A DNA stretch of 60,048 nt from a delta proteobacterium ML8_F1. Its GTDB lineage: Bacteria > Bacillota > Clostridia > Peptostreptococcales > Acidaminobacteraceae. The notes below the pieces were generated by a model that saw nothing but the letters and a program-made list of their open reading frames with translations, ran no database searches and was not told where the DNA came from. Each line of letters starts with the position of its first letter. The stretch's first letter is position 1. This document shows positions 35,681 through 53,600 of this stretch, piece by piece. Where the stretch lies: the NCBI GenBank assembly GCA_002029975.1, contig LQBE01000040.1, forward strand, positions 73,066-133,113, given 5' to 3'. The position numbers were made by a program, and so were the translations under genes.

Positions 35681-38023
35681 ATGAATATCAATGTCATTTT
35701 ATTGAAGGCGGTCAAGGATACGGATCGTCTCTATACTTACAGGGTACCTGAAAATTTTGAGGCCATGGTTCAGGTGGGTTCAAGAGTCATTGTCCCCTTC
35801 GGCAGGGGGTCGCGCCCCATGGAAGCAGTGGTGATTGAAAAGGGGGTGGCAGCGGACTTTGAGGTCAAGGAGATTCTCAGAGGCTTTGACGAGGGTTATG
35901 ACCTGAGCCCTGAGATGGTTGAGCTGCTCCAAAGGGCCGGGGATTATTATTTAAGCTCCCTGTCAAAGCTGATTAAAAGCGCTATTCCCCTGGGTTCGAA
36001 ACTCGAGCTGCTGCCTGAAATCCTTTTCAAGGATGACGAGGCGAGGAGGGCCTATGAAAGTGGGGAGCAGAGTCTGGCCTCTCTGTTGAAGCAGGGGCTG
36101 GCAATTCAGCGGGTGACTTATCAAAAAAAAGCCCGGGAAAAAACCCTCAAGATGGTCCGGTGCCTGGCCTCTTTGGACCAACTCCAAGCGGCATTACTGG
36201 AACTCAGAAGCAACGCCCATAGGAAAAGAGCCTTGCTGGAATTGTTTGTCAAGGATCCGAAACGGGTGATCCCCCTGAAGCAGGCGGGACTTTCAAGGGA
36301 GGCGCTCAGACCCCTTTGCGAGGAAAATCTCATGGAGGTTTTTGATAAAACCGTCTATCGCTCCAGCCTTTACAGAGACCAGGACCTCTCGATAAAACCC
36401 AAGCCTGTACTCAATCGAGAGCAGTTGGCGGCCTTTGAGCAGATCAGGGCCGCCATGGCGGCAAACGCCTATGCCCTTTTCCTGCTTCACGGGGTGACCG
36501 GCAGCGGCAAGACCGAAGTCTACCTGCAGCTGGCTGAGGTGGCTTTGGAGCGTAATGAGTCTGTGATAGTCATGGTGCCAGAGATTTCTCTGATTCCTCA
36601 GATGGCCCGGGTCTTTATCGAGAGATTCGGACCCGTGGTGGGCTTTTACCATTCGCAAATGTCCCAGGAAGAGAAGATGGAGGAATGGTTGAGAATCAAG
36701 GAGGGAGAGTTCAGAATCGTCATCGGTCCGAGGAGTGCCGTGTTTTCCCCGGTGAAAAACCTGGGCCTGATAGTCGTGGATGAGGAGCACTCTTCGAGTT
36801 ACAAATCGGAATCAGAACCCAGATACCACGGCATCCAACTCGCACAGATGAGGGCGGGGCAGCACCAGATTCCCCTTGTCCTGGGCAGTGCCACCCCCCG
36901 GGTGGAAACGTACTGCGAGGCGCTAAAGGCAAGGGGCGGGATTCTCACCCTGACCAAACGGGTGGCTCAAAGACCGATGCCGGCTGCCTCTCTGGTGGAT
37001 ATGCGTGAAGAAACGATGACGGCGAAGGTCAGCCTGGTCAGTGCAAGACTCAGGGAGCAGATTCAGCTGAGACTTGAAAAAGGCGAGCAGACCATTCTTT
37101 TTTTGAACAAGAGGGGATATGCCTCCTTTGTCAGCTGTCTGCAGTGCGGTCATGTCATGAGCTGTCCCCACTGTGAAGTCCCTTTGATATACCACAAGAA
37201 AACCAGCCATGGCGAATGCCGGCTGTGCGGCTACAGAACACGGGTTCCGAGGCAGTGCCCGGAATGCGGCAGCCCCCACTACCAGTATTTCGGCATGGGA
37301 ACGGAAAAAATCGAAGAGAAAATCAAAGGCCTGTTTCCAGAGGCCCGGATCATACGAATGGATTCAACCTCCATGGCGGGCAAATACGCCCTCAAGGAAG
37401 CCTACGAGGCCATTGAGGCCAGGGAAGTCGACATCATCCTCGGGACACAGATTGTTGCAAAGGGCCATGATTTCAAAGGGGTCACCCTGGTGGGGGTCCT
37501 TGCGGCGGATATCAATCTCAATGTGCCCGACTACACAGCCAGTGAAGTGACCTATGCCCTGATTACCCAGGCCATGGGACGCAGCGGCAGGGGGGAAGTC
37601 CCGGGAGAAGTGATTATCCAGACCTACAATCCGGAGCACTATGCGATTCAAAGCGCCCTGGCTTCCGATTACCGGGTCTTTTACGATTTTGAAATAGCGG
37701 TTCGTGAAGCCATGACCTACCCGCCCTTCACCCGGTTAATCCATCTGACGGTCAATTCCTCTATAGAAACCATGGCCCATGACTATGCCAAGGGTCTGGC
37801 GTGGGCCCTGAGAGAGCAGTTCAAGGGTCTCGATGCCCGGGTTGTGGGTCCCGGTGCCGCCTTGAACCTGAAGGTGAACCACACTTACCGCTATCAGGTG
37901 CTGATCAAGGGAGAGACAGTTGACCAGCCCAGGATTAAGGGTATAATAAATGATATAATCCACAAGGTAAAACATCCTAAAATTCATGTGTCGGTGGATG
38001 TGGACCCCATCAGTCTTTTATGA
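35681..38023 (+). CDS. priA: Primosomal protein N' (replication restart helicase PriA)
   Basis: A 780-residue superfamily 2 helicase. It has an N-terminal DNA-binding domain (TYRVPENF, VGSRVIVPFGRGSRP), Walker A GVTGSGKTEVY, a DEEH box, the zinc-binding cysteine cluster (CLQCGHVMSCPHCEVPL, CRLCGYR, CPECGS) and helicase motifs near ILGTQIVAKGHDF and MGRSGRGEVPGEV. It reloads the replisome at collapsed forks. GAGGTGTGGA precedes ATG 35681. The frame is open to TTG 35669, inside the coaBC terminator, so the later start is used. Confidence 0.96.
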   Translation: MNINVILLKAVKDTDRLYTYRVPENFEAMVQVGSRVIVPFGRGSRPMEAVVIEKGVAADFEVKEILRGFDEGYDLSPEMVELLQRAGDYYLSSLSKLIKSAIPLGSKLELLPEILFKDDEARRAYESGEQSLASLLKQGLAIQRVTYQKKAREKTLKMVRCLASLDQLQAALLELRSNAHRKRALLELFVKDPKRVIPLKQAGLSREALRPLCEENLMEVFDKTVYRSSLYRDQDLSIKPKPVLNREQLAAFEQIRAAMAANAYALFLLHGVTGSGKTEVYLQLAEVALERNESVIVMVPEISLIPQMARVFIERFGPVVGFYHSQMSQEEKMEEWLRIKEGEFRIVIGPRSAVFSPVKNLGLIVVDEEHSSSYKSESEPRYHGIQLAQMRAGQHQIPLVLGSATPRVETYCEALKARGGILTLTKRVAQRPMPAASLVDMREETMTAKVSLVSARLREQIQLRLEKGEQTILFLNKRGYASFVSCLQCGHVMSCPHCEVPLIYHKKTSHGECRLCGYRTRVPRQCPECGSPHYQYFGMGTEKIEEKIKGLFPEARIIRMDSTSMAGKYALKEAYEAIEAREVDIILGTQIVAKGHDFKGVTLVGVLAADINLNVPDYTASEVTYALITQAMGRSGRGEVPGEVIIQTYNPEHYAIQSALASDYRVFYDFEIAVREAMTYPPFTRLIHLTVNSSIETMAHDYAKGLAWALREQFKGLDARVVGPGAALNLKVNHTYRYQVLIKGETVDQPRIKGIINDIIHKVKHPKIHVSVDVDPISLL

Positions 38024-39476: not shown

Positions 39477-40163
39477 ATGTTTATTTACGGTTCAAATCTG
39501 GGATTTCTGCTGCTGATTCCCATGATTATTTTTGCAATGTATGCCCAGTCCAAGGTGACCCGAACCTTCAACAAATATCTCAGGGTCCCGAATTCACGCA
39601 ATCTGTCGGGCTATGAAACGGCCAGAAAGATTCTCGACGCCCACGGGCTCTACGATGTTCCCATTGAGAAGGTGGGGGGGCATCTTTCGGACCACTATGA
39701 CCCGAGGACCCGTACCGTCAGACTTTCCGAGGCGGTCTACAGCGGGCGCAGTGTGGCGTCGAGCAGTGTGGGGGCCCACGAGGTCGGTCATGCCCTGCAG
39801 CATGCCGAAGGCTATGTCCCCCTGAAGTTGAGAAGTCTTCTGGCTCCGGCGGCCCAGTTCGGGTCGAAGTACATGATTTTTCTGATCTTCATGGGTTTCA
39901 TTTTCAATATTCTGCAGCTCATTGACTTGGGGATTCTCTTTTTCTCTCTGGCACTGCTTTTTCAGATTGTCACCCTGCCGGTGGAATTCAATGCCAGTCT
40001 CAGAGCCATTGACAATCTCCATCACATGGCTCTGGTGGGTCAGGAGGATCTTGCAGGCTCCAATGCCGTCCTTAAAGCGGCTGCCATGACCTATGTGGCG
40101 GCGGCGGCGGTTTCTGCCGCACAACTGTTCAGATTCATCCTTCTGAGAAATGCCAGGCGCTAA
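39477..40163 (+). CDS. YugP-type membrane zinc metallopeptidase
   Basis: A 228-residue membrane protein with the zinc motif HEVGH (residues 101-105) and about four hydrophobic segments, including one at the N-terminus (9-22) and two at about 130-165. LRVPNSRNLSGYETARKIL, HLSDHYDPRTRTVRLS and LPVEFNASLRA are family blocks (neutral zinc metallopeptidase, YugP/DUF-type). Substrate unknown. TTAGGAGAG precedes ATG 39477. It lies between fmt and rsmB, its usual place. Confidence 0.92.
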   Translation: MFIYGSNLGFLLLIPMIIFAMYAQSKVTRTFNKYLRVPNSRNLSGYETARKILDAHGLYDVPIEKVGGHLSDHYDPRTRTVRLSEAVYSGRSVASSSVGAHEVGHALQHAEGYVPLKLRSLLAPAAQFGSKYMIFLIFMGFIFNILQLIDLGILFFSLALLFQIVTLPVEFNASLRAIDNLHHMALVGQEDLAGSNAVLKAAAMTYVAAAAVSAAQLFRFILLRNARR

Positions 40164-40164
40164 C

Positions 40165-41505
40165 ATGAAAATCATCAATCCACGGGTAATAGCCGTCAAG
40201 ACTTTGACGGCTATTACCCATAAGAAGCGCTTTATGAAGGAAGTCCTCGAAGAGAACCTTAACGGGGTTCCCAGGGAACAAAGGGCCTACGTCAACCGGA
40301 CGGTGCGGGGAGTTGTGGAGAATTTGAGCTATCTCGACGGGATTCTTGAAAAACTGTCCCGGATCAAGCTTAAAAAGCTCAGAGAAGCGGATCGAAATAT
40401 TCTCAGACTCGGGCTGTATGAAATCCTCTTCATGGACCATATCCCTGACTATGCCACGGTGAATGAAAGCCAGAGACTGATGAAAAAATCCAATCCTTCC
40501 CTGGTCGGGTTTGCAAATGGTCTGCTAAGAAATGTTTCAAAAAACAGGAAATCCATCATTGAGGAATTCGAAGGGACTCTTAAAGACACGCCGGAGGATC
40601 TGGCCGTCAAATATTCCCATCCCGCATGGCTCATGGCCCGTTGGATCCGGGATTTCGGCCTGGAAAACACGAAGCGCATGGCGGAGCTCAACAACACCCC
40701 GCCTCCGGTATTTATCCGACTCAATCCCCTCAAGACCGACCTGAACCGGCTCATGGCGGCACTGGCCGGGGAGGGGGTGAAGGTCCAGCCGGCTCCCTTG
40801 AATCCCCAGGCCCTGTTAGTTGAAAGCGCAGACATATCCTTGCTTGCCGGCACCCGGGGGTTTGCCGGGGGTCTGTTTACAATCCAGAGTCTCAGCAGCA
40901 TGCTCATTGCGCCGCTCATGGATTTGAAACCAGGTCTGAGGGTTCTCGACCTGTGTGCCGCCCCGGGATCCAAAACCACCCATATCGCTGAGTTGATGCA
41001 GGGAACGGGTGAAGTCGTCGCCCGGGATATCTCCCGGGGAAAGCTGGCCAGGATACAGGAGAATGTGGACCGGCTCAAGTTGGACAATGTCCGGATTCAG
41101 CTGGGAGATGCCACCGTGCAGGATCCCGGAAGTTTTGACGCCTTTGACCGGATTCTCCTGGACGCCCCCTGCTCCGGTCTTGGAATCATCAGGAGAAAAG
41201 GGGACATCAAATGGAACCGCGAAACCGGGGACATTCCCGCCCTGAGAAAAATTCAGAGGAATATGATTAATAATGCCGCGAAATATGTTAAAATAGGCGG
41301 TGTAATCCTGTACAGTACCTGTACACTGGAAGTTATGGAAAATCAAGGAGTCATTGAAGAATTTCTCGCGACCCATGAGAACTTTGTCATGGATTCAATT
41401 TCTGAAATCGATGACGCATTTATCCGAGAGGGCATGCTTGTGGTTACGCCACATGAACATGGCATGGATGGATTTTTTGCCTGCCGGTTAAAACGCATTG
41501 GATAA
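40165..41505 (+). CDS. rsmB: 16S rRNA (cytosine(967)-C5)-methyltransferase RsmB
   Basis: A 446-residue SAM-dependent methyltransferase. An N-terminal NusB-like RNA-binding domain (residues about 1-130; NPRVIAVKTL, EQRAYVNRTVRGVVE, ILRLGLYEILFM) is followed by a methyltransferase domain with LDLCAAPGSKTTHIA, the DAPCSGLGIIRRKGD motif and the second conserved cysteine in YSTCTLE. It methylates C967 of 16S rRNA. ATG 40165 has only a weak ribosome binding site, and a strong hairpin starts 17 bases after the start codon's last base. rlmN, which often follows rsmB, is missing. Confidence 0.95.
   Translation: MKIINPRVIAVKTLTAITHKKRFMKEVLEENLNGVPREQRAYVNRTVRGVVENLSYLDGILEKLSRIKLKKLREADRNILRLGLYEILFMDHIPDYATVNESQRLMKKSNPSLVGFANGLLRNVSKNRKSIIEEFEGTLKDTPEDLAVKYSHPAWLMARWIRDFGLENTKRMAELNNTPPPVFIRLNPLKTDLNRLMAALAGEGVKVQPAPLNPQALLVESADISLLAGTRGFAGGLFTIQSLSSMLIAPLMDLKPGLRVLDLCAAPGSKTTHIAELMQGTGEVVARDISRGKLARIQENVDRLKLDNVRIQLGDATVQDPGSFDAFDRILLDAPCSGLGIIRRKGDIKWNRETGDIPALRKIQRNMINNAAKYVKIGGVILYSTCTLEVMENQGVIEEFLATHENFVMDSISEIDDAFIREGMLVVTPHEHGMDGFFACRLKRIG
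40184..40219 (+). repeat. Perfect 16-bp inverted repeat inside the start of rsmB
   Basis: GGGTAATAGCCGTCAA (40184-40199) and TTGACGGCTATTACCC (40204-40219) are exact reverse complements around the four bases GACT. The repeat lies in codons 7-19 of rsmB, which encode the conserved segment RVIAVKTLTAIT. In mRNA it would form one of the strongest hairpins in the window, 17 bases after the ATG. There is no T-run, so it is not a terminator. A role in translation control is inferred only. Confidence 0.9.
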
Positions 41506-46307: not shown

Positions 46308-46342
46308 AAAAGAGTCTACTTAATGAAGCAGTAGACTCTTTT
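46308..46342. terminator. Bidirectional terminator between thiN and rpmB
   Basis: AAAAGAGTCTACT (46308-46320) pairs perfectly over 13 bp with AGTAGACTCTTTT (46330-46342) around a 9-base loop. There are A- and T-runs on both sides, so it can serve convergent thiN and rpmB. It includes the last bases of rpmB. Confidence 0.9.
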
Positions 46343-53554: not shown

Positions 53555-53600
53555 GAATGGTGTATTGTATACAAAAAAAGCGTATTTTAAGGAGGAAACA

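Follow-up and report, generated by a model that had tools for sequence, protein, structure and literature searches.

Inverted repeat in the first codons of rsmB

The question raised by this locus is whether a perfect inverted repeat in the first codons of rsmB is explained by the encoded protein or does a second job, and in the latter case whether it is read as DNA or as RNA. The window, that is the whole stretch of 60,048 nt that was analyzed, carries rsmB on its plus strand (40165–41505), encoding a 16S rRNA (cytosine(967)-C(5))-methyltransferase of 446 aa with an N-terminal NusB domain (NF011494, 434.5 bits against a cut-off of 319; PF01189 and PF01029). The start at 40165 fits the related sequences described below, the codon at that column being ATG in four of the five (window included) and GTG in one.

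An earlier note on this DNA had described a perfect 16-bp hairpin with a GACT loop in codons 7–19. A scan of the window for inverted repeats with arms of at least 13 nt and at most 60 nt apart recovered exactly this structure, which covers codons 7–19 with the ATG at 40165 taken as the start: at 40184–40219, GGGTAATAGCCGTCAA (40184–40199) and TTGACGGCTATTACCC (40204–40219), each of 16 nt and 100% complementary, flank the 4-nt spacer GACT. No other perfect short-range inverted repeat of the window is as long, and it heads the eight listed, so the description of it as the longest perfect stem stood, while the distance given from the start codon, 17 bases, has to be corrected to 16 intervening bases. 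The exact arm has one match per strand in the 2.38-Mb genome, both at the rsmB site. The next perfect repeat in the window, of 13 bp with a 9-nt spacer, lies at 46308–46342 between the thiamin pyrophosphokinase and Asp23 genes.

When 32 syntenic genes of the window (34,014 nt) were resampled synonymously 15 times, the longest arm found anywhere was 8–10 bp as compared with the 16 bp observed. Resampling of rsmB codons 1–22 alone produced an arm of at least 10 bp in 93 of 5000 sequences and one of 16 bp in a single case. The peptide itself predisposes to a dyad, and for that reason the strong evidence comes from conservation of the palindrome, not from its presence in one genome.

Conservation of the dyad among relatives

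A search with RsmB gave a match at E ≤0.001 in 59 of 61 genomes, its own included, the weaker matches including other members of the RsmB/NusB superfamilies. The clade considered here (genera g1, g3 and g4, uncultured Clostridia) provides five rsmB sequences, that of the window included, from about four lineages. Identity to the RsmB of the window is 73% for G001, 51 and 50% for the two copies in G003 and 49% for G004, with the next sequence at approximately 40%. The two G003 sequences (G003a and G003b) come from one assembly, 73% complete, in which contigs C135 and C200 (loci L145 and L146) hold two different rsmB regions, both with the dyad; this assembly probably contains two strains binned together. 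A further genome of the same genus (G023, 62% complete) was left out, since its RsmB match was confined to the C-terminal part, at 35%.

The conserved unit is the 24-bp sequence TAGCCGTCAA-N4-TTGACGGCTA at 40190–40213, in rsmB codons 9–17, and all 20 arm bases are kept in all five clade sequences, third codon positions included. Its left arm, TAGCCGTCAA (40190–40199, codons 9–12), and its right arm, TTGACGGCTA (40204–40213, codons 14–17), are both identical in 5/5, and the right arm is continued by TTAC to give an invariant run of 14 nt (40204–40217). The spacer (40200–40203) is constant in length and variable in sequence, being GACT in the window and AACC, TGCT, TGCT and TGTT in the relatives, and the differences at codons 12–13 fall exactly within it. 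In all five sequences the site is uninterrupted. Outside the core, the outer part of the 5' arm (40184–40189) reads GGGTAA in the window and GAAGAA, GAAAAA, GAAAAC or GAAAAT in the relatives, and the outer part of the 3' arm (40214–40219) reads TTACCC in the window and in G001, and TTACAT or TTACCT in the others. Accordingly, G001 and G003a have a contiguous stem of 12 bp, and G003b and G004 one of 10 bp.

To compare this conservation with that of neighboring genes, codons were aligned for 34 syntenic ORFs of the window with those of G001, G004 and, for some, G003, with three to five taxa each; ORFs 51252 and 59138 (minus strand) were dropped as presumed antisense frames with a codon identity of 74–78%, leaving 32 genes for the codon statistics. 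With p-values based on amino-acid-specific background rates, which are nominal as windows overlap and taxa are related, but for a region named before the scan, the segment AV..LTAIT ranked first of 7,539 codon windows in 32 genes with three taxa (7/7 codons identical, p = 2.7e-8) and first of 2,577 windows in 13 genes with four (7/7, p = 5.4e-11), and with five taxa the best of 1,216 windows in 7 genes had 6/6 identical codons (p = 2.7e-9). In the five-taxon comparison AV..LTAIT itself is identical at 6/7 codons, the one that differs being a Thr codon outside the core. All five Ala, Val, Leu and Thr codons of the core are identical in five taxa, as is the Ile codon ATT, whereas outside the dyad such codons are identical in only 2/296 five-taxon columns (9/581 with four taxa and 133/1745 with three). 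Over rsmB as a whole, dyad included, 32 of 169 codons are identical in five taxa as compared with 21.9 expected. Across the 34 ORF alignments the rsmB dyad was also the only inverted repeat (arm of at least 6, loop of 3–10) paired in every taxon. Synonymous conservation at the dyad thus far exceeds that found elsewhere in these genes, as would be expected of a conserved element overlapping a coding sequence.

As the core was invariant in a gene that otherwise diverged considerably, the sequence comparison indicates that the dyad very probably has a function beyond its coding role. The central idea of the earlier note, a constraint on the repeat beyond coding, is upheld by these data, with 20/20 core bases kept in 5/5 sequences against the 2/296 background columns, although the conserved unit is 10-4-10 and not 16-4-16. 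Relatives with the same protein sequence but no stem, which that note had considered grounds for rejecting the idea, did not turn up: the dyad was present in all the relatives found with at least 49% identity.

The longer stem of the window is due to GGT at 40185–40187, opposite ACC, which occurs in this genome only and adds three pairs to make 16 bp. Compared with GAAGAA in G001, GGGTAA in the window has three adjacent differences, each of which yields a base pair, and two of which turn codon 8 from arginine in G001 into valine in the window. In 79 of 85 aligned RsmB sequences the residue at codon 8 is Q, K, E or R; two have V, one of these being the window's own. The three outer pairs would be a later, non-conserved addition. 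Homogenization of arms by replication template switching has been reported for yeast genes (PMC8604942) and for RNA genes (PMC8794818). The resemblance to the present case is that adjacent changes extend a pre-existing inverted repeat and change an amino acid; such switching could account for the three window-specific pairs at most, and would leave the conserved core unexplained. One template switch, with the 3' arm as the source of the copy, would suffice for the outer-arm change, but the case for it is weak and chance is a possible cause for the outer arm, because the window and G001 differ by 551 runs of at least three adjacent differences over 33.9 kb.

Occurrence of the dyad elsewhere

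The full dyad was found in four of seven genomes searched and at rsmB only, once per genome and twice in the assembly with two rsmB copies. No further site within three mismatches was found in these seven genomes, the reversed control matching at one place in G004. Searches with up to three mismatches and with exact half-sites therefore revealed none of the additional sites, in the genome or near the promoters of a regulon, that would be expected of an operator. Half-sites gave 33 matches in four genomes, 10 of which were arms of the dyad itself; for 20 of the other 23, no partner arm was found within the respective 3-kb locus. Among the exact 10-mer half-sites in G000 and G001, one is shared by the two, in the same coding sequence. 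In a search for a trans partner or a second site, the exact 14-mer TTGACGGCTATTAC, the 14-nt extension of half-site TTGACGGCTA, was found at rsmB only, in 4/4 genomes; with up to two mismatches it gave 92 matches, those at rsmB included. The corresponding numbers against the reversed control were 35 vs 20 in G000, 22 vs 12 in G001, 23 vs 26 in G004 and 12 vs 39 in G003.

The dyad is not a general feature of rsmB. In a survey of the first 120 nt of RsmB genes (104 loci, of which 87 were usable and 17 skipped), arms of at least 10 bp were found in five loci (the window, L004, L033, L005 and L006, where L004 and L033 lie on the same contig), and the other 82 5' ends, outside the clade, had no perfect arm longer than 8 bp. 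The inner 8-bp form is carried by 4/41 genomes of the family. Order-wide, GCCGTCAA-N2-10-TTGACGGC was matched in 9/393 genomes, five of them outside the clade; as the reversed control matched in 7/393, these five are at chance level, and none lies in an rsmB-like frame as judged from the five longest frames per locus.

Several other origins were considered and rejected. A mobile palindromic repeat of the REP or RPE type does not agree with one site per genome and with the absence of any gap at the dyad codons in the five-taxon alignment. A phage or plasmid source was discarded since 39900–40600 had no plasmid match, the full arms were absent from viral contigs and the first 102 aa had no viral relative. 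Five Rfam matches were obtained at E ≤5, all below gathering scores and none overlapping the dyad, so that a known RNA family was likewise dismissed, as was an alternative pairing partner, since within 500 nt on either side no 6- or 7-mer taken from the arms comes up again in three or more of the five taxa. In the part of the open literature that was searched, no title or opening of an abstract dealt with a dyad element of this kind.

Gene neighborhood and putative promoters

The gene order is priA, def, fmt, zinc metallopeptidase, rsmB, PP2C phosphatase, PASTA kinase and rsgA. The gene directly upstream, encoding a putative neutral zinc metallopeptidase (39477–40163, plus strand; PF04298), has a stop codon that ends one base before the ATG of rsmB. 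A probable promoter, TTGACC-16-TATAAT, lies on the plus strand in the 3' end of priA (37920–37947), upstream of def, fmt, the peptidase gene and rsmB; it matches the consensus at 11/12 positions and its hexamers are within runs invariant in 5/5. A possible extended -10 promoter, TTAATA-16-TAAAAT with TG (41267–41294, plus strand, 9/12 consensus matches), is located in the 3' end of rsmB and precedes the phosphatase, kinase and rsgA genes. Fifteen bases of this site (41283–41297) are invariant in 5/5 taxa, and 41267–41297 ranks as the second-best region in the four-taxon codon test.

A scan of six genes (priA, def, fmt, peptidase, rsmB and phosphatase) for runs of at least 9 nt invariant in five taxa returned two runs in priA (TTGACC and TATAAT, 16 apart), one in def, the two dyad arms and one at the extended -10 site in rsmB. 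Since three of the four runs other than the dyad correspond to the two promoter-like sites, such runs tend here to mark DNA elements. No conserved promoter-like pair was found near the dyad by the promoter scan and the five-taxon alignment. A minus-strand promoter using TTGACG of one arm (9/12 match) was rejected, as by eye the relatives have no matching second hexamer.

Folding and covariation

The rsmB sequence from -30 to +120 folds at -51.5 kcal/mol as compared with -34.2 (s.d. 5.6) for synonymous resamples, of which 3/1000 were as low, and folding of 166 nt around the dyad gave a z of -3.38 with 2/200 dinucleotide shuffles as low. The earlier note had held that a folding energy no lower than that of synonymous shuffles would tell against its proposal, and this was not the outcome. 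Stretches of 70 nt around the dyad fold at -16 to -28.6 kcal/mol in all five clade sequences. A stable stem with an energy below synonymous resamples, as an mRNA hairpin demands, is consequently present.

The compensatory third-position changes that the note had suggested looking for were absent. Of the sixteen pairs, 11 are the same in all sequences, four are broken in some of them and one has a change on one side that leaves it paired (as G-C or G-U); none of the sixteen changed on both sides and values were not above shuffled controls, the 11 invariant pairs being silent. The absence of compensatory changes weakens a pure RNA-structure reading; the silence of the invariant pairs means that the covariation result cannot by itself exclude RNA. 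Three pairs joining third positions (ATA:GCT, GCC:ACG and GTC:TTG) could covary synonymously and none did, and neither GCC to GCT nor GTC to GTT, single changes after which a G-U pair would remain, occurred in the core. Comparable Ala and Val columns with only C or T in third position are uniform in 2/10 cases with five taxa, 5/32 with four and 51/192 with three, so that the G-U argument taken alone is modest, at about 20% per column. The ATT of the right arm has stayed fixed in G003b and G004, where the base of the 5' arm that pairs with its middle position has changed. The absence of these possible synonymous changes, in genes whose ordinary synonymous sites are nearly randomized, together with an ATT fixed without its partner, favors a reading of the sequence itself. 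Sites in DNA bound by protein dimers typically have invariant perfect arms and a free spacer of fixed length, and both the two-fold symmetry and the free spacer of constant length expected of a dimer operator were found here.

Candidate function and alternative explanations

On the strength of these sequence comparisons we propose the dyad as a candidate for a site that is read by sequence, most likely as DNA, and acts on transcription into rsmB, an explanation to which we give somewhat less than an even chance. Selection on the base sequence would keep the dyad in codons 9–17, and a two-fold symmetric, presumably dimeric, protein would read it as double-stranded DNA with one half-site per subunit, leaving the 4-bp spacer unread. 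Once bound, the protein would hinder RNA polymerase coming from the priA promoter, a roadblock that would set rsmB output apart from that of def and fmt, while the phosphatase, kinase and rsgA genes would keep their own promoter at the 3' end of rsmB. The position of the dyad between the conserved priA promoter and the conserved promoter-like site at the end of rsmB makes a local effect likeliest, and a protein at the dyad could lower transcription of rsmB alone. Several points count against a DNA site: no promoter adjoins the dyad, the lack of a second close site in the genomes searched would imply a DNA-binding regulator with one close target, which is unusual, the dyad would form a stable hairpin in the mRNA as well, and the comparison covers just three genera.

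The main rival is an mRNA hairpin acting on rsmB translation or stability, which we consider the less probable explanation yet a serious one. Such a hairpin might hold initiating ribosomes, be bound by an RNA-binding protein, with RsmB as the obvious autoregulator, or be cut by an RNase. The core stem begins at nt 26 of the coding sequence (the A of the ATG being 1), immediately in front of a ribosome positioned on the start codon; it is stable in all five sequences at an energy that few resamples reach, and one copy per genome, hence one mRNA, suits a cis-acting RNA. Mid-operon autoregulatory sites are, moreover, known for RNA-binding proteins. Against this, the core has neither covariation nor a G-U change, outer pairs are broken without repair and the loop varies freely in sequence, though it is usually the loop or a bulge that a sequence-specific reader of an RNA hairpin recognizes. 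A narrower proposal, one-site control of the 16S rRNA methyltransferase, would have a candidate protein, possibly RsmB through its NusB-like domain, read the dyad as DNA or RNA and thereby tune the supply of the enzyme apart from the gene row; we regard it as unlikely.

The remaining explanations are each very improbable. Protein constraint with codon bias, in which the palindrome is a coincidence of the peptide IAVxxLTAIT, can draw on the predisposition of this peptide (93/5000 resamples of codons 1–22), on residues conserved within the clade and on the slight excess of identical codons in rsmB overall (32 vs 21.9 of 169), but it was already disfavored by the five identical core codons and Ile ATT, set against 2/296 outside the dyad, and by the confinement of codon 12–13 differences to the spacer. 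We think it about as improbable that the dyad, single in each genome and perfectly symmetric as it is, serves a recombinase, an integrating element or a replication or segregation protein in place of a gene regulator: the site is uninterrupted in all five sequences, GC skew is positive in all 15 steps of the window, and of the 22 contigs in the viral collection with the 8-4-8 form none has the outer TA pairs of the full dyad. A Firmicutes dif consensus had no match in three genomes, so that this comparison is uninformative. A terminator or attenuator on one strand is given just as little credence. At least one inner-stem match outside the clade, that at L115, looks like a terminator, with six T after the hairpin, and on the minus strand three of the five rsmB sequences have four or five T directly after the core or two bases past it; yet the coding strand has no T run in 5/5 and the minus strand none in the window and G001, the dyad was absent from the terminator-scan list, and a terminator does not need an invariant stem.

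Relation to known systems

Intragenic operators can act as roadblocks to transcription, as with lacO2 in lacZ, the PurR site in purB and the CcpA and CodY roadblocks. These share with the dyad a symmetric sequence in a coding region some way past the promoter, but they belong to regulators with many sites per genome, whereas the rsmB dyad would be the one close site of a putative regulator. Mid-operon autoregulatory mRNA sites are exemplified by those of S7, S8 and S15, which like the dyad can form a stem and stand at the head of an RNA-binding protein gene that is part of a longer row; in contrast to them the dyad shows no covariation, has a variable loop and has no Rfam match at E ≤5 that overlaps it.

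The dyad would represent a clear second code laid over the protein code in a bacterial housekeeping gene, and if it is true that RsmB reads it, rRNA modification would be linked to control of its own enzyme. A handful of genomes was enough to find overlaid sites, the same comparison having recovered the priA promoter and the promoter-like site in rsmB. Elsewhere in the window, at 53559–53574, GGTGTATTGTATACAA, which holds the palindrome TTGTATACAA, is identical in 3/3 taxa where the frame called for acetate kinase begins. The Pfam match of this frame begins only at residue 18, an AAGGAGG follows, and G004 has ATA at the called start, so that 53559–53574 is probably the leader or promoter of the acetate kinase gene and not codons.
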